A stretch of DNA of 11,649 nt, taken from Anaerolineae bacterium CG2_30_58_95 (GTDB lineage: Bacteria; Chloroflexota; Anaerolineae; Anaerolineales; Villigracilaceae). Below, piece after piece: positions 421 through 10,445 of this stretch; the first letter of the stretch is position 1, and each line of letters begins with the position of its first letter. Location of the stretch: the NCBI GenBank assembly GCA_001872165.1, contig MNXK01000185.1:1-11649 (forward strand), in the 5' to 3' direction. A program made the position numbers and the translations under genes. Below the pieces are notes generated by a model. The model had not been told where the DNA came from and made no database searches. It saw only the letters and a program-made list of their open reading frames with translations.

Positions 421-807
421 CTATTTCGCCCCAAGAAATGCCCTGGCAAACTTCCGAATTGAGTTGGCTATTTCGAGCGCTTCTTTTGCATCATCGGCAG
501 TTGGAGAATCCCCGGGGTAACGCGTCCGCACGGCATAGTCAGTCAACGTGTTGAGGAGGCGTGCGTCCATTTCAAGGAAAATCCCTGCAGACGAACATAA
601 GTCGTTCAGCATCAACAAGTCGTGTGTCTTGGGAAAGTCCGCGCCTTTGGAAATGAGCAACGCTTTCATGTATTTCTCCGCACATTGTTGCGCATGAAAA
701 CATGTTCCCCCAACCAGCGGTTTTTTCCGTTGGAGCGCGGATTTCGCCAGTGTAAAATCTTCCTCGGCGCGTTCCGTCCACGCGCGCGGGTCATTTGTTT
801 CGCTCAT
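421..807 (-). CDS. HEPN domain protein (partner of MNT nucleotidyltransferase)
   Basis: A 128-residue helical protein with the HEPN signature CFHAQQCAEKYMKALL at about residues 36-51 and the RTRYPGD motif at about 94-100, as in COG2250-type HEPN proteins that are usually encoded next to minimal nucleotidyltransferases. In such pairs the HEPN protein is generally the toxic partner and the MNT protein neutralises it. It starts at ATG 807 with an AAGGTG ribosome site about 5 bases upstream, and overlaps the end of the nucleotidyltransferase gene by 17 bases, so the two are translationally coupled. The R-x4-6-H catalytic motif of RNase-active HEPN proteins is not present anywhere in the sequence, so RNase activity should not be assumed. 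A role in substrate binding or a different toxic mechanism is possible. Confidence 0.85.
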   Translation of the reverse strand: MSETNDPRAWTERAEEDFTLAKSALQRKKPLVGGTCFHAQQCAEKYMKALLISKGADFPKTHDLLMLNDLCSSAGIFLEMDARLLNTLTDYAVRTRYPGDSPTADDAKEALEIANSIRKFARAFLGAK

Positions 808-1177
808 ACAACACCTTGCCGCTCGTCAGAATTTCACGGATAAAGAAGTCCCCCGACTTCAAGTCTTCTTCGATCTCTTTGGGTGTCTTGACCAGGATAT
901 CCACGGGGAAGGGACGCGGCAGCAACAATTGCGAAACTGCCCAACTCCTGTCCTTGTGGGATGCGCGCGTATTCATAATGACAAGCAAATCCACATCGCT
1001 GTGTGAATTGGGGGTGCCATAAGCAAAAGAGCCAAAAAGGATGACCTTTTCGGGCTTCAGTTCATCAACGATTTTCTTTATGGCAGGCCGTAACGACTTG
1101 CCTACCGGAACCTTCAAGCCCACAGGAATGATCTCGGGTTGGCGCAAAGAAAACCTGGCAAGAGTCGGTGTTGTCAT
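791..1177 (-). CDS. MNT-type minimal nucleotidyltransferase (antitoxin-like)
   Basis: A 128-residue protein of the polymerase-beta nucleotidyltransferase superfamily. The active-site signature is complete: G49-S50, ten residues, then D61-x-D63 (GSFAYGTPNSHSDVD), with a third Asp at 93 in PVDILV. Members paired with HEPN proteins can modify the HEPN partner with AMP and silence it; that role is inferred here from the family and from the gene pair. The frame is open up to an ATG at 1207, but I place the start at ATG 1177 because the 30 bases between them contain a TGTTATAAT extended -10 element, so the longer form would start upstream of transcription. No Shine-Dalgarno sequence precedes ATG 1177. 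The 3' end overlaps the HEPN gene by 17 bases. Confidence 0.85.
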   Translation of the reverse strand: MTTPTLARFSLRQPEIIPVGLKVPVGKSLRPAIKKIVDELKPEKVILFGSFAYGTPNSHSDVDLLVIMNTRASHKDRSWAVSQLLLPRPFPVDILVKTPKEIEEDLKSGDFFIREILTSGKVLYERNK

Positions 1178-1186
1178 GGTAAATGT

Positions 1187-1195
1187 ATTATAACA
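1187..1195 (-). promoter_or_regulatory. Extended -10 promoter of the MNT-HEPN operon
   Basis: The minus strand reads TGTTATAAT, a perfect TATAAT with the TG of an extended -10, ending 9 bases before ATG 1177. The -35 region is poor, as is common for extended -10 promoters. Transcription would start about 3-4 bases before the ATG, giving an essentially leaderless mRNA, which fits the missing ribosome site. Confidence 0.6.
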
Positions 1196-1236
1196 AATCA
1201 GCAGCAAATGAAGTGACGAATTTACAGCCAGGCGGT

Positions 1237-2398: not shown

Positions 2399-3553
2399 TT
2401 ACCCCCGCTTCTTCGGCGGTGGCAGCGGGATTTCGCGCGGCGCGAGCATGTTCCAACGCGAGGCGCCCAGGTACAGGATTTCCAGGATCAAGTCGGTGTA
2501 TGAAATCCCGTCCGCATTGGCGATCAGGCACAGGTCGCTGTAATCGGGGGTCAGGCCGGGCAGGGGGTTGATCTCCAACAGGCAGGGATTGCCTTCGCTG
2601 TCGAGGCGGAAGTCAACGCGCGAGACATCCAGCGCGCCCAGCAGGTGATGGCCGCGCCAAGCGTAGTGCTGCAATTTCTTGGCCAGGTCCGGTTCCACTT
2701 GAGCAGGACAAATATATCCGGGCGCGCCTTGCGAACCAATGGACTGGGCCTTGGCCTCCAGCCCGTAAACGCCGGGCGTGACCGAGCGGGTGCTATCCAA
2801 TTCCAGGATAGGGAAGCGGTGGAAACCGTCCGCATCGTACCACTCTGGATGCAGGGAGTACAGCCTGGAGTCCGGGCGGCCCATGATCGCGACGGTGAAC
2901 TCGCGGCCGGAGAGGTAAGTCTCCACCAGAGCGGGCTGCTTGTACATGCTGACGACGTACCTGGCGCGCTCGCGCAGTTCTCCTTCATTGTGGACAATGG
3001 CGCGAGCATCTACGCCCATGCCGGTACCTTCGCGCGCCGGCTTGACGAACAACGGAAAGCGCAGCTCGGGGCGTAAGGGTTCCTCGCCAGTGTGGAATTC
3101 CTGGAAAGGCGCGACGGGGAGGCGCCGGTCGCGCCAGATGCGTTTGGTCAGCGTCTTGTCCAATGCAATGGCGTTGGTCAAAACACGCGAGCCGGTATAG
3201 GGAATTTTGAGCAGTTCCAGCAAGGCTGGGATCTGGGCTTCGCGCGCATCGCCCCCTAAGCCTTCAGCGATGTTGAAGCAGATGTCGGGCTTTGCTGTTT
3301 TCAGCGCATAGGGCAGATTGCTGTCGGCTGGGATGAACATGGTCCAGTGGCCGTCAGTTTCGAGCGCGGCCCGGATGAGGTTTATCGTTTCGATATAGTC
3401 ATAGTCCGCGCCGGTGTCCGGGGGAACGTCAGACGGGAGGGGCTTATCGTGCTCTTTGATGTTGGCCAGCACAGCCACCCTCCACGGACGCGCCGGGCGC
3501 GGTGGGGAACTGGGAGGTTTATCGCTTTCTTGATCTTGCATGGCAGGGTTCAT
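2399..3553 (-). CDS. D-Ala-D-Ala-ligase-like ATP-grasp enzyme
   Basis: A 384-residue ATP-grasp carboxylate-amine ligase. The prefold region reads NIAEGLGGDAREAQIPALLE and IPYTGSRVLTNAIALDK (about 94-133), as in D-alanine-D-alanine ligases. The ATP-grasp domain has FVKPAREGTGMGV (169-181), LVETYLSGREFTV (209-221), and the metal-binding D314 in RVDFRLD with E327 and N329 in LLEINPLPGL. Unlike true Ddl it lacks the N-terminal GGxSxE motif and has GTG where Ddl has GSS, both part of the dipeptide site, so the substrate is uncertain. A proline-rich leader of about 20 residues precedes the fold. The frame is open to ATG 3568, but AGAGGA just before ATG 3553 favours the latter. It is followed by radC. 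Confidence 0.8.
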   Translation of the reverse strand: MNPAMQDQESDKPPSSPPRPARPWRVAVLANIKEHDKPLPSDVPPDTGADYDYIETINLIRAALETDGHWTMFIPADSNLPYALKTAKPDICFNIAEGLGGDAREAQIPALLELLKIPYTGSRVLTNAIALDKTLTKRIWRDRRLPVAPFQEFHTGEEPLRPELRFPLFVKPAREGTGMGVDARAIVHNEGELRERARYVVSMYKQPALVETYLSGREFTVAIMGRPDSRLYSLHPEWYDADGFHRFPILELDSTRSVTPGVYGLEAKAQSIGSQGAPGYICPAQVEPDLAKKLQHYAWRGHHLLGALDVSRVDFRLDSEGNPCLLEINPLPGLTPDYSDLCLIANADGISYTDLILEILYLGASRWNMLAPREIPLPPPKKRG

Positions 3554-3594
3554 TTCTTCCTCTAACATGGACAGAGTGGGTTTTTGCAGTGAGA

Positions 3595-3651: not shown

Positions 3652-3893
3652 GTTCTGTTACCAGCCAGGTCAGACAAAAAACGAACAAAAGGGTTCACTT
3701 CGATCCGCATGGATTCGTTCAAACAACTACAGAAAAACCAGACAGAGACCCAAGGCGTGCCCGGATGCGAGACCTCTATCCGGGCAGCCGTGTGTAAAAA
3801 CATGCTGTCTGCTCTACTTCCTCATTGCGAGAGGGATTGCTTCATCCCTGTTTAGTTCGCAGGGGCTTGCAAGCACATATCCACGGAGGTGAC
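3652..3893 (+). other. Long leader of atpA with two hairpins
   Basis: This stretch has no gene that I can support. It contains a perfect 8-base stem (gcccggat 3759-3766 with atccgggc 3778-3785, 11-base loop) and a 6-base stem (agggat 3832-3837 with atccct 3844-3849). The string cattgcgagagggattgcttc at 3823-3843 resembles the end of a dispersed CATTGCGAG...GAAGCAATCCC type of repeat known from many bacteria, which is a recollection, not a search result. Neither hairpin is followed by a T-run. The leader ends with GGAGGTGA directly before the atpA start. Confidence 0.4.
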
Positions 3894-5555
3894 ATGACCG
3901 ACCTGATCAAACAAATTACCAGTGAGTTAAAACAGCAGATTGATTCCTACACGCCTGAGATCGGCATCAGCGACGTCGGCACGGTGACCGAGGCCGGGGA
4001 TGGCATCGCCCGCGTCGGCGGCCTGGGGAACGTCAAGTCACAAGAATTGGTGCAGTTCCAGAACGGTGTGATGGGTATCGCTTTCAACCTGGAAAAGAAC
4101 AGCGTTGGCGTCATTATCATGGGCGATTATTCCGAGATCGCCGAGGGGATGATTGCCCGCTCGACCGGGCGAATCGCCTCGGTGCCGGTCGGTGACGGGC
4201 TGATTGGGCGCGTGGTCAACGCCCTGGGCGAGCCGGTGGACGGTCGCGGCCCGATCCAGTTTACGGGCTACCGTCCCATCGAGCGCATCGCGGCGGGCGT
4301 AGTCCAACGCCAGGACGTGGATACGCCAGTGCAGACCGGCATCAAAGCCATCGACTCGATGATCCCCATCGGCCGCGGCCAGCGCGAACTGATCATCGGC
4401 GACCGCCAGACCGGCAAGACAGCCATCGCCATTGACACGATCATCAACCAGAAAGGCAAGGATCTGGTCTGTATTTACGTGGCCATCGGCCAGAAAAAGG
4501 CGGCCGTTGCCCGCACCGTGGCCCTGCTGGAACGCTACGGCGCGATGGAGCATACGATTGTGGTGATTGCCTCGGCGGACGAAGCCGCCGCGCTGCAATA
4601 TATTGCACCTTATGCGGGCTGCGCCATCGGCGAGGAGTTTTTGGAGACCGGCCGGGATGCGTTGGTCATTTACGACGACCTCTCCAAACATGCCTGGGCC
4701 TATCGCCAGGTGTCGCTACTCCTGCGCCGCCCGCCGGGACGTGAAGCTTATCCGGGTGACGTGTTCTACCTGCATTCCCGCCTGTTGGAACGGGCGGCTC
4801 GTATGGCGAATAAGTACGTCATCGTCAAGAAGGACTTTGCCGAATCGCTGGCGACTGAAAAGGACAGCGTAGACGGCAAGGTCTACGGCGGGCCACGCTC
4901 ATTGCATGATGCCGAAGAGGCGCGCAAGGCGCTGGAAAAGCCGGATGACTACAAGGCGGTCAAGGTCGAAGGGTCGGGCGGCTCGCTGACGGCGCTGCCG
5001 ATCATCGAGACCCTGCTGGGCGACGTTTCAGCCTACATCCCGACCAATGTCATCTCCATTACGGATGGTCAAATTTACCTGGAAGGCAACCTGTTCAACG
5101 CCGGCATCCGCCCGGCAGTCAACGTGGGCATCTCGGTCTCGCGCGTGGGTGGATCCGCGCAGGTGCGGGGGATGCGCCAGGTGGCGGGTAAGTTACGCCT
5201 GAACATGGCGGCTTATCGTGAACTGGCGGCTTTCGCGCTGATGGCCTCTGACCTTGATAAGGCGACTCAGGCGCAATTGAACCGTGGTCAGCGCATGCAA
5301 GAAATCCTCAAGCAACCGCAGTATGAGCCAATGTCCATGGAAAACCAGGTCATTGTCATCTTCGCCGGGACGAACGGCTTCGCCGATGCCGTCCCGGTAG
5401 AGCGGATGCGCGCCTGGGAGACGGCCCTGCTGCGCTACATGGACAATTCCCATCCTGAGCTTGGCAAGGACATCGCCGAGAAGAAGCAGATCAGCGAAGA
5501 GACCGACAAGAAACTGCGCGCCGCGCTGGATACGTTCAAGGCCACGTGGCAGTAA
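3894..5555 (+). CDS. atpA: ATP synthase F1 subunit alpha
   Basis: Non-catalytic nucleotide-binding subunit of the F1 head of the membrane ATP synthase. Visible features are the beta-barrel N-terminal domain, the P-loop GDRQTGKT at 169-176, [17 protein letters not shown] at 256-271, and the arginine-finger segment ISVSRVGG at 413-420. The start is ATG 3894, preceded by GGAGGTGA; the frame is open upstream to 3825 but only through leader sequence. At 553 residues it is about 40 longer than the E. coli protein. The extra length sits mainly at about 305-363, between ERAARM and SLTALPII, where E. coli has about 18 residues and this protein about 59. It is first in an atpA-atpG-atpD-atpC cluster; no Fo or delta genes lie upstream. 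Confidence 0.97.
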
Positions 5556-5604: not shown

Positions 5605-7942
<2,338 letters not shown>

Positions 7943-7994: not shown

Positions 7995-8006
7995 CGGAGA
8001 ATGCTT

Positions 8007-8456
8007 ATGCCCATCCGTTGTGAGATCGTTTCCCAAGACCGCATGGTCTACCAGGGCAATGCCGACATGGTGCTGCTCCCCGGCTCGGAAGGGGAGATGG
8101 GCATCCTGCCCAACCACGCGCCGCTGCTGACCACCTTGAAATTCGGCGTCGTCAAAGTACGCGCTCAGGGCCAGGAAGAATTTTTTACAGTTGCCGGCGG
8201 CGTGGCCGAAGTGCAGCCGGATATCGTTACCGTTCTGGCCGACGCGGCCGAAAACGTCAAAGAAATTGACGTAGCGCGCGCCGAGGCCGCCAGGAAGCGC
8301 GCCGAAGAGATGCTGGCCAAGGGTCCACCCGCGGATACGGATGCTTATCTGAAGGTCGAGGCGGCCCTGCGCAAGTCCACTTTGCGGCTGGATGCCGTCA
8401 AACGCTTCCGGCGCGGCGCCACGAAACCGGCCAGAATCACCGAAGAATCCAAGTGA
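8007..8456 (+). CDS. atpC: ATP synthase F1 subunit epsilon
   Basis: A 149-residue subunit of the F1 central stalk that links gamma to the c-ring and can inhibit hydrolysis. The N-terminal beta-sandwich shows the family motif GSEGEMGILPNHAPLLT (26-42) and FFTVAGGVAEVQ (59-70). The C-terminal helical region rich in Ala, Glu and Arg begins near residue 85. ATG 8007 is preferred over ATG 8001 because GGAGA lies about 6 bases before it, whereas it abuts the earlier ATG. It is separated from atpD by a palindromic spacer and from the mreB-like gene by 8 bases. Confidence 0.93.
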   Translation: MPIRCEIVSQDRMVYQGNADMVLLPGSEGEMGILPNHAPLLTTLKFGVVKVRAQGQEEFFTVAGGVAEVQPDIVTVLADAAENVKEIDVARAEAARKRAEEMLAKGPPADTDAYLKVEAALRKSTLRLDAVKRFRRGATKPARITEESK

Positions 8457-8464
8457 GTTAAACT

Positions 8465-9472
8465 ATGCCTCTATTCTCGAAAGACCTGGGGATTGATCTG
8501 GGCACGAACCAGACCCGCATTGCCGATGGCTCAGGTGTTCTGGTTGATGAGCCGACCATCGTCGCCATTGCGCAGGACGAGCAGAAAATCGTTGCCCTGG
8601 GCAAGGAAGCGCAGAATATGTACGGCCGCGTGCCCGAAAATATCGAGGTCGCTCGACCGCTGCAGAACGGCGTGGTGGCCGATTACGAGATCATCGAGGC
8701 ATTGCTGGCCTATTTGCTGCGGCGCGTCAGTGGCCCGCTGCGCATCTTCCGCCCGCGCGTCATGATCTCGGTGCCTTACGGCGTGACCAGCGTGGAATCG
8801 CGCGCCGTGCACGAAGCCGTGCTCCAGGCCGGCAGCCGAGACGCTTACCTGATCCAGCAGCCGCTGGCCGCCGCCATCGGCGTGGACCTGCCGATTGGCT
8901 CGCCCTCCGGCAACATGGTGCTGTGCCTGGGCGGCGGGGCGACGCAGGTCGCGGTCATCGCCATGTACGGCATCGTCTCGGCGGAGACCTTGCGCGCGGG
9001 GGGTATGCACCTGGACGAGGCCATCGTCGCTTATGTGCGCAAAAAGTACGGGCTGATCATTGGCTCACCGACCGCCGAGCAATTGAAGTTCAAGATCGGC
9101 GCGGCGGTGCCCCAGGATAAAGAAGAGAGCATGGAAGTGCAGGGACAGGATCAGGTCAGCGGGCTGCCGCGTCCCGTCACACTGACAACCGGGGAGATCG
9201 TCGAGGCGCTCCAGGAGCCGCTCAAGGCATTCATCGAGATCGGCCGCCGCGTCCTCGAGAAGACCCCGCCCGAACTGGTCTCGGATATCATTGACCGCGG
9301 CGTGGCATTGTGCGGCGGTGGGGCGCTGTTGCGCGGTATTGACAAGTTCTTCACCAAGTCGCTCGGCATCCCAGCCTATCTGGTGGATAACCCTTTGACA
9401 TGCACGGTGGAAGGCGCGATGAAGGCCTTCAGCCTCTATCCTTTCCTCAAGCGGAACCTTCCGCCCGTATAA
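8465..9472 (+). CDS. mreB: MreB-family actin homologue with altered nucleotide site
   Basis: A 335-residue MreB-type protein of near-normal length. It keeps the phosphate-1 loop (GIDLGTNQT, D11), MEVQGQDQVSGLP (223-235), VLEKTPPELVSDIIDRG (263-279) and the adenosine loop ALCGGGALLRG (281-291). Several residues that contact nucleotide or metal in known MreBs are changed: IEEP is IQQP (Q131, Q132), VDIGGGTTE is LCLGGGATQ (C154, A159, Q161), and KxEIG is KFKIG (K210). Canonical MreB polymerises on the membrane and guides cell-wall synthesis; this one may bind ATP poorly or not hydrolyse it. It starts 8 bases after atpC without a clear ribosome site, which suggests translational coupling to the ATP synthase operon. 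The family call is firm, the function is not. Confidence 0.9.
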   Translation: MPLFSKDLGIDLGTNQTRIADGSGVLVDEPTIVAIAQDEQKIVALGKEAQNMYGRVPENIEVARPLQNGVVADYEIIEALLAYLLRRVSGPLRIFRPRVMISVPYGVTSVESRAVHEAVLQAGSRDAYLIQQPLAAAIGVDLPIGSPSGNMVLCLGGGATQVAVIAMYGIVSAETLRAGGMHLDEAIVAYVRKKYGLIIGSPTAEQLKFKIGAAVPQDKEESMEVQGQDQVSGLPRPVTLTTGEIVEALQEPLKAFIEIGRRVLEKTPPELVSDIIDRGVALCGGGALLRGIDKFFTKSLGIPAYLVDNPLTCTVEGAMKAFSLYPFLKRNLPPV

Positions 9473-9480
9473 GATCAGCC

Positions 9481-9600
9481 GACCGGGCATAAGCGCCTAT
9501 CCGAATAACGGAATGCAGACTTCAGTCTGCCCTGCATTGCGGACTAAAGTCCGCGTTCCAGAGGGTTTTCGGATAGGCACTAAGCGTCCGGTCTTTTGTT
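9481..9600 (+). terminator. Putative operon terminator with REP-like doublet in its loop
   Basis: Outer arms gaccgg (9481-9486) and ccggtc (9588-9593) and inner arms gcctatccgaa (9495-9505) and ttcggataggc (9568-9578) form a long stem followed by ttttgtt. In the loop sit two perfect 16-base palindromes, gcagacttcagtctgc (9515-9530) and gcggactaaagtccgc (9539-9554), flanked by ggaatgc and gcgttcc. Termination after the mreB-like gene is inferred from the stem plus T-run. Confidence 0.55.
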
Positions 9601-9602
9601 AC

Positions 9603-10445
9603 ATGAACATTCCTCGACCTCCAGAAGCCCTCTCAGCCCCCCTTCGTCCCCCCATTTTTGAACTTAAAAATGGGGGGATAGAGGGGGGCGGCGGCTTGAT
9701 CGAGACCTTCCCCCTGCGCAAAGGCAGGCGCTGGGCCTGGCTGGTTGCGGCGTTGATCTTGCTGGCGGCTTCTGCGGGCGTAAAGATTTACGGGATAACC
9801 CTGGCCTACCTGGGCTGGAAACGCTATGGCGCGGCGGTGGTGGGCGAGTCCCTTTTTTGGCCGCTGGTCATTGCGGCAGGCCTATTCCTGTCGTTCCTGA
9901 TCTTCGCCGGGATTGCGTACGCCAACTGGGTCAAGGCAATCCTGCTCTACCAGAACGGCTTCGCCTATAAAGATCGTCGCGGCCTGCACCCCTGGCGTTG
10001 GCGAGACGTAGCCGCCTTGCGCATGGCGGTCACCCGCCACGATGTCTTTGGAATAAACACTGGCGCTACACACGCCTACACAGTAGAAAACCGCAGCGGC
10101 AACCGGCTTGCGTTGAACGATAGTTTCAGCCGCGTGGAAGAACTGGCGCGGGCCATCGAAGAAAAGACATTCCCCATTCTACTCGAGCAGGCCAGCCAAC
10201 AATACAACGCCGGCAGGAACCTGACCTTTGGGCCGGTAATGGTCAACCAGGCGGCAATCCAGATCGGCAAGAAGAGCTATGCCTGGGGCGAAGTCCAGCA
10301 AGTGACCGTGCAGCGTGGATATTTGCACATTGCCAGGAAGGAGGGGGGTCTATTCAGCGGTGCGAAGACCGCCCTGGCAGGCATCCTCAATCTACGTGTG
10401 TTGCTGTCAATCATTAGCCAGGTGATCAGGGTCAGGGTTGAGTAG
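9603..10445 (+). CDS. Two-TM membrane protein, DUF6585-like
   Basis: A 280-residue protein from ATG 9603. There are two hydrophobic helices (about 45-64 and 85-106). They are followed by a soluble domain containing LLYQNGFAYKDRRG, PWRWRDVAALR, THAYTVENRSGNRLALNDSF, and later LTFGPVMV and KKSYAWGEVQQVTVQRGYLHI, a pattern I recognise from DUF6585 proteins of unknown function. The open frame reaches ATG 9513, but that lies inside the palindromic element. Residues up to about 30 from ATG 9603 are encoded by a G/C-run inverted repeat, so the true start may be TTG 9696, which has a G-rich site 7 bases upstream (about 249 residues). The gene is convergent with rex. Confidence 0.7.
   Translation: MNIPRPPEALSAPLRPPIFELKNGGIEGGGGLIETFPLRKGRRWAWLVAALILLAASAGVKIYGITLAYLGWKRYGAAVVGESLFWPLVIAAGLFLSFLIFAGIAYANWVKAILLYQNGFAYKDRRGLHPWRWRDVAALRMAVTRHDVFGINTGATHAYTVENRSGNRLALNDSFSRVEELARAIEEKTFPILLEQASQQYNAGRNLTFGPVMVNQAAIQIGKKSYAWGEVQQVTVQRGYLHIARKEGGLFSGAKTALAGILNLRVLLSIISQVIRVRVE
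9636..9689. repeat. Long C-run/G-run inverted repeat at the 5' end of the DUF6585-like gene
   Basis: The inner arms ccccccattttt (9648-9659) and aaaaatgggggg (9666-9677) are perfect, with a 6-base loop. The pairing extends outward through gcccccct (9636-9643) and aggggggc (9682-9689), making a stem of about 24 pairs with one mismatch and two possible G-U pairs. It resembles a MITE or REP-type dispersed element that fell into or next to the gene start. Confidence 0.75.

Follow-up and report, generated by a model that had tools for sequence, protein, structure and literature searches.

The gene mreB2 of Anaerolineae bacterium CG2_30_58_95 encodes a second MreB-family protein with an eroded catalytic site. 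Across the order to which this organism belongs (Anaerolineales), MreB2 appears to have lost the residues used for ATP hydrolysis and to have retained its fold, protofilament interfaces, membrane loop and base-side nucleotide residues. Based on these sequences, we consider it fairly probable that MreB2 is a non-hydrolysing or very slow MreB isoform, which would provide a stable scaffold at the membrane alongside canonical MreB.

The mreB2 gene and its catalytic site

The window, meaning the whole stretch of 11,649 nucleotides that was analysed, carries the following genes:

424-1207, minus strand: HEPN domain gene overlapping a nucleotidyltransferase gene (profile matches)
2399..3568, minus strand: D-Ala-D-Ala ligase-like ATP-grasp gene (PF07478), divergent from the atp genes and mreB2
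3888..5555, plus strand: atpA, F1 alpha (TIGR00962)
6539..7942, plus strand: atpD, F1 beta (TIGR01039)
8001..8456, plus strand: atpC, F1 epsilon (TIGR01216, 130.7 bits against a cut-off of 67.25)
8465..9472, plus strand: mreB2, 335 aa, starting 8 bp past the atpC stop
9513-10445, plus strand: gene for a DUF6585 protein, downstream of mreB2 (profile match)

The overlapping HEPN and nucleotidyltransferase genes resemble an MNT-HEPN toxin-antitoxin pair. The atpA product, at 555 aa against a 503-position model, has an apparent internal insertion of some 50 aa ahead of the GGSLTALP motif.

As the original prediction had stated, an mreB-family reading frame begins 8 bases past atpC. Its product passes the cut-offs for the MreB family (PF06723, 386.8 bits against 27; TIGR00904, 384.2 against 365.75) and is predicted to have the full actin-like MreB fold. 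The gene follows the F1 genes and is not part of an mreBCD operon; the same genome also carries, on another contig, an mreB with an intact motif followed by reading frames that read as mreC and mreD (named by eye).

Residues were counted on 219 distinct rows drawn from 239, namely 120 MreB2 sequences of the order, 8 of other orders of the class, 41 of other classes, 39 canonical MreBs and 11 outgroups. Named genomes were scanned for related loci; of 167, the best 80 were kept, at 75-96% identity. The order group includes L034-L113, assigned by 75-96% identity rather than by taxonomy. For the other classes, 41 rows were chosen by hand to spread over the families among the listed best matches from 201 genomes, 166 of them with any match. 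Six loci were excluded (L124-L126, L129, L130 and L132); five of them represent genomes already included among rows L157-L164, and L130, in which the motif reads intact, was left out since G062, with the same family code, was already present. Sites are numbered as in Caulobacter (Cc), with E140, D162, T167 and the E...T-X-[D/E] motif with E169 taken from the accessible parts of published papers. The residues of the window protein that bear on its function are as follows:

8495..8497, plus strand: D11 (Cc D16), phosphate-1 Asp, kept (120/120 in the order)
8507..8512, plus strand: N15-Q16 (Cc A20-N21), phosphate-1 loop, changed (Ala 1% and Asn 18% of 120 order rows; commonest residues Met, 72, and Phe, 66)
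8666..8668, plus strand: N68 (Cc D76, Spiroplasma MreB5 D70), changed (Asp in 5% of 120 order rows, 71% of other-class rows)
8738..8755, plus strand: L-R-I-F-R-P (residues 92-97), hydrophobic membrane loop, kept (F95 111/120, P97 120/120)
8789..8830, plus strand: residues 109-122, main protofilament-pairing helix (Cc 117-130), kept (equivalents of V118, E119, R121 and A122 120/120 each)
8855..8860, plus strand: Q131-Q132 (Cc D139-E140, E140 being the catalytic Glu), changed (Gln at E140 in 111/120 order rows)
8924..8926, plus strand: C154 (Cc D162, Mg-site Asp position), changed (order rows: Cys 82, Ser 24)
8939..8947, plus strand: A159-T160-Q161 (Cc T167-X-E169, catalytic Thr-X-Glu), changed (motif in 0/120)
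9005..9007, plus strand: M181 (Cc D189), changed (Asp in 0/120 order and 39/39 canonical rows; Asn in 32/41 other-class MreB2s)
9092..9094, plus strand: K210 (Cc E218) in KFKIG (Glu in 3/39 canonical copies)

The catalytic motif E...T-X-[D/E], given as conserved in 95.8% of non-Spiroplasma MreBs (PMC9597168, accessible part), was found intact in 0/120 order MreB2s, 5/8 sequences from other orders, 38/41 from other classes, 38/39 canonical copies and 11/11 outgroups. For the same five groups, E140 is kept in 4/120, 8/8, 39/41, 38/39 and 11/11, D162 in 4/120, 6/8, 32/41, 39/39 and 11/11, and T167 in 7/120, 5/8, 40/41, 39/39 and 11/11. The acidic residue at 169 survives in 79 of the 120 order rows, the base-side nucleotide residues E213 and K216 are kept in 119/120 and 120/120, and D192 in 120/120. 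The window protein, with Q132, C154, A159 and Q161, therefore has neither the motif nor the Mg-site Asp of a canonical ATPase MreB. The sequence CLGGGCTE is common among relatives within the order; it places Cys at the positions of both the Mg-site Asp (154) and the catalytic Thr (159), so that two thiols could occupy the old phosphate site.

The original prediction had named four changed sites. All the substitutions are present as described (Q131-Q132, the phosphate-2 stretch L153-C154-L155-GGG-A159-T160-Q161, and K210 in KFKIG), and the absence of the motif throughout the order places them well beyond a single assembly. Three of the four sites were upheld as changes at conserved positions; the KxEIG site is not diagnostic because so few canonical Chloroflexota copies have Glu there. 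The pocket is also altered at sites absent from that list (Cc D76 to N68, N21 to Q16 and D189 to M181). Overall, 72 columns are conserved in the 50 canonical and outgroup rows; 48 of these columns persist in 90% or more of the order rows, and 17 in fewer than 20%. Pocket columns, from a list that we compiled from papers, are over-represented among those lost (6/13 vs 11/59), a weak effect at a one-sided Fisher p of 0.045, and conserved positions outside the counted pocket have changed too, e.g. Cc S37 and R238.

The likely consequence for ATP hydrolysis can be judged from published mutants, as given in the accessible parts of the papers cited. In Spiroplasma citri MreB5 the wild-type kobs of 0.15 per min falls to 0.05 in D70A, 0.01 in E134A, 0.08 in D156A and 0.0005 in T161A (PMC9195046). 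Sites were matched by adding 6 to the MreB5 number to obtain the Caulobacter one; PMC9597168 itself pairs E134 with E140 and T161 with T167, and the D70/D76 pairing is our own inference. The window residues N68, Q132, C154 and A159 fall at D70, E134, D156 and T161, so that all four are changed, and the Thr to Ala change at the last is identical to the most damaging MreB5 mutant. With four ATPase-lowering positions changed at once, hydrolysis by MreB2 should be very slow or absent. Two observations count against a full loss: 79/120 relatives retain the acidic residue at 169, and D156A by itself no more than halves MreB5 activity. In addition, Caulobacter D162G is a viable, A22-resistant mutant (PMC3137890, accessible part), so a change there alone does not abolish function. 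The loss of hydrolysis put forward in the original prediction is supported by published mutants, by recurrence across the order and by purifying selection (see below), and stands as a probable loss.

Interfaces and predicted behaviour of the protein

The surfaces through which MreB assembles appear to be retained in the window protein, as does the hydrophobic membrane loop. In the pairing helix, a V118E change is reported to give single filaments (PMC4051119, accessible part). At the longitudinal contact, the order rows have Ser (97) or Ala (23) at the S283 position, and 119 of them keep D284. In the membrane loop, the position of F95 is Pro in 36/39 canonical copies. Altogether, 129 columns are at least 95% conserved across the 120 order rows.

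Given these features, MreB2 would bind nucleotide or stay permanently in one state, and would assemble into membrane filaments with slow or no turnover. Such filaments could form a stable scaffold next to the hydrolysing MreB encoded by mreBCD or intermixed with it. The most likely behaviour that we infer for MreB2 is that it forms filaments, works together with canonical MreB and takes part in wall growth; wall genes occur among its neighbours, namely murA in other classes and the D-Ala-D-Ala ligase-like gene. As a more tentative extension, it is possible that a walled order runs elongation on two MreBs, the non-hydrolysing one forming permanent membrane filaments that position or template the dynamic one, and that this arrangement evolved independently of Spiroplasma MreB3. 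One published result is at odds with a membrane scaffold that does not hydrolyse ATP: Geobacillus MreB reportedly has to both bind and hydrolyse ATP to form membrane filaments efficiently (PMC10718530, accessible part).

The altered phosphate-1 loop means that nucleotide binding itself may be lost. A20 and N21 are replaced, most often by Met and Phe, as would be expected if MreB2 neither bound nucleotide nor polymerised on its own and instead worked as a monomer, either capping, nucleating or regulating canonical MreB or binding to wall enzymes. We regard this as unlikely, in view of the pairing helix conserved in up to 120/120 rows, the conserved longitudinal contact and the retention of base-side E213 and K216.

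Less likely again is that MreB2 has kept ATP hydrolysis by means of a rebuilt, actin-like site, with Gln132 standing in for Gln137 of actin. Actin does have Gln137 at the E140 position (PMC9597168, accessible part), so residual hydrolysis is conceivable, and both the prevalence of Gln there (111/120) and the retention of D11 (120/120) are in keeping with such a site. However, 116/120 rows lack the Mg-site Asp D162 and 113/120 lack T167, and the varied replacements across the order (Q/R/T/G at 140; C/S/T/N/Y/H at 162) look relaxed rather than rebuilt.

Gene neighbourhood, ancestry and selection

Gene order was surveyed for 169 distinct MreB2 rows, with the window atpC as sole atpC query, so that divergent atpC genes may be missed in the counts that follow. 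Within the order, atpC lies directly upstream of mreB2 in 100/120 loci (gaps of -1 to 223 bp); it lies at 1285 bp in one, neither atpC nor murA was seen in 18, and one locus is too short. In other orders of the class the upstream gene is atpC in 6/8 and murA in 2/8. Among the other classes the arrangement is atpC-murA-mreB2 in 18/41, murA alone in 6, atpC directly in 13 and other or none in 4; MurA was identified by profile for two examples and by similarity to one of them for the rest. The clostridial MreB of Acetoanaerobium (L239) likewise has murA just upstream. The atpC-murA-mreB2 arrangement thus looks old, and murA would since have gone from between the two genes in the lineage of the window.

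Fourteen of the 18 unlinked order loci have the D-Ala-D-Ala ligase-like gene upstream on the opposite strand (13 at a distance of 172-374 bp, the remaining one at 999 bp), as though the F1 block had been excised. This gene is a recurrent divergent neighbour, present also in 23 of the 34 linked order loci for which 5 kb or more of upstream sequence is available. A genome-wide search with the beta subunit only did not find an F1-beta orthologue in these 14 genomes, where the best match showed 26-31% identity (E 2e-8 to 3e-30), compared with E below 1e-262 in three linked genomes used as controls. A full-length V/A-type subunit A is present in 11 of the 14 (872-903 bits, below the archaeal model cut-off of 972); G004, G252 and G262 have neither the F1 nor the V/A enzyme in full, and their assemblies may be incomplete. 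The 14 form an Anaerolineales-like group (G004 and G252-G264; loci L020, L058, L064, L067, L068, L070, L071, L074, L076, L079, L091, L093, L095 and L097). Their MreB2s, with Q, C, C and E at 140, 162, 167 and 169, are eroded too.

MreB2 therefore appears to outlive F1, which makes a coupling between the two unlikely. The original prediction had proposed a non-hydrolysing scaffold made with and for F1 ATP synthase, to which the frequent position of atpC directly upstream lent support. With murA between or alone upstream in so many other-class loci, and with an eroded MreB2 in genomes where F1 genes are missing beside mreB2, F1-beta was not found and V/A-type subunit A is mostly present, we now regard it as highly improbable and have set it aside; taken as a whole, the earlier interpretation is partly supported. 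That mreB2 sits next to the ATP synthase genes looks like a matter of inherited order rather than of a functional link, and the same may hold for other mreB genes with an ATP synthase neighbourhood.

An MreB2 orthologue was found in 59 of 60 relatives searched (53-96% identity), the exception, G046, showing only the canonical copy. In a 123-row tree all MreB2 sequences lie on one side of a branch (SH-aLRT 97) with canonical MreBs and outgroups on the other, and the order MreB2s form one group (SH-aLRT 97); the tree was built by a quick method without bootstrap and is unrooted, with only 11 outgroup rows. Judged from this tree, MreB2 is an old, phylum-wide Chloroflexota paralogue distinct from the mreBCD copy. 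No paper describing it was found in the open-access literature, searched by title and start of abstract, a set outside which subscription papers mostly fall.

In four relatives (G022, G024, G036 and G049) an eroded MreB2 was found but no canonical mreB. In these genomes mreC was not found with TIGR00219, nor was there a close match to the PBP2-like protein of the sister genome G017. About 3 kb past the PBP2-like gene, G017 encodes a glutamyl-tRNA synthetase-like protein (both named by eye), which is likewise unmatched in G022, G036 and G049. An assembly gap is therefore the simpler reading, and the idea that these relatives live on eroded MreB2 alone was dropped. G024, whose assembly is 86% complete and split into 400 contigs, has a 54% match to the synthetase-like protein. 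In G022, G036 and G049 the stretch from the synthetase-like gene to mreB was not found, although the listed completeness of G036 and G049 is 97% and 95%.

Parsimony on the 123-row tree gave 3 changes for D189, 5 for E140, 7 for T167, 8 for D162 and 15 for D76, and since the rows are related the 0/120 count does not represent 120 independent losses. The early-branching order members L155, L138, L139 and L145 retain E140 and D162 without T167 and D189, which suggests a sequence of losses from D189 through T167 to E140 and D162. This is no more than a tendency: D162 is replaced as well in 9/41 rows from other classes and 2/8 from other orders, some still with T167, so its changes are repeated and a strict sequence was rejected.

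The window gene is under purifying selection, with dN/dS (Nei-Gojobori) of 0.046-0.083 against three relatives of the same genus; the comparison with L008, from a different genus and with dS close to 1, gave 0.12-0.14. Over all pairs of the window genome and its three same-genus relatives, the canonical gene stood at 0.055-0.119. A pseudogene is ruled out by these low ratios, in line with the original prediction, and neutral drift in a decaying duplicate, although several catalytic positions vary freely among relatives and conservation is slightly lower for MreB2 than for canonical MreB (mean pairwise identity 0.654 vs 0.718 over 23 genomes), is contradicted by the same ratios, by the 129 conserved columns and by the near-universal orthologue, and can be given almost no weight.

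Relation to known MreB systems

Canonical MreB of the mreBCD type (Thermotoga, Caulobacter, Geobacillus) differs from the window protein at the catalytic Glu, the Mg-site Asp, Thr-X-Glu and D189, and in operon context. The canonical copy found in the same genome has the motif intact, as do 38 of the 39 canonical copies counted. The MreB2s of other Chloroflexota classes fall on the same side of the tree as the window protein, but the motif is intact in 38/41 of them and D189 is already Asn in 32/41.

The Mbl locus of Firmicutes resembles many Chloroflexota MreB2 loci outside the order in having murA upstream; murA precedes MreB2 in 24/41 rows from other classes and 2/8 from other orders and is absent upstream in the window. 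The Acetoanaerobium locus, which is followed by flagellar-type genes, we take to be an Mbl locus. Three Bacillus-type Mbl rows and this sequence do not fall inside MreB2 (SH-aLRT 97, in an unrooted tree with 11 outgroup rows), and the motif is intact in all 11 outgroups. A nesting of MreB2 within Bacillus Mbl is thus unsupported by the tree.

Three papers (PMC9597168, PMC10718530 and PMC9195046), in their accessible parts, describe the role of ATP hydrolysis in MreB as unclear or ambiguous. An MreB that is selected across an order without its catalytic residues, beside an intact paralogue and with intermediates among its relatives, offers a comparison that can test what filaments do without hydrolysis. 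The nearest precedent for MreB2 is Spiroplasma MreB3, likewise an isoform without E...T-X-[D/E] beside hydrolysing isoforms, which releases Pi very slowly yet forms filaments (PMC9597168, accessible part). MreB3 differs in carrying Asp, Lys and Ser/Thr at the motif positions, where the window has Q, A and Q, in its wall-less host and in sharing only 29-30% identity with MreB2. The two site losses were presumably of independent origin, and MreB2 is a member of a known family in an unusual state.
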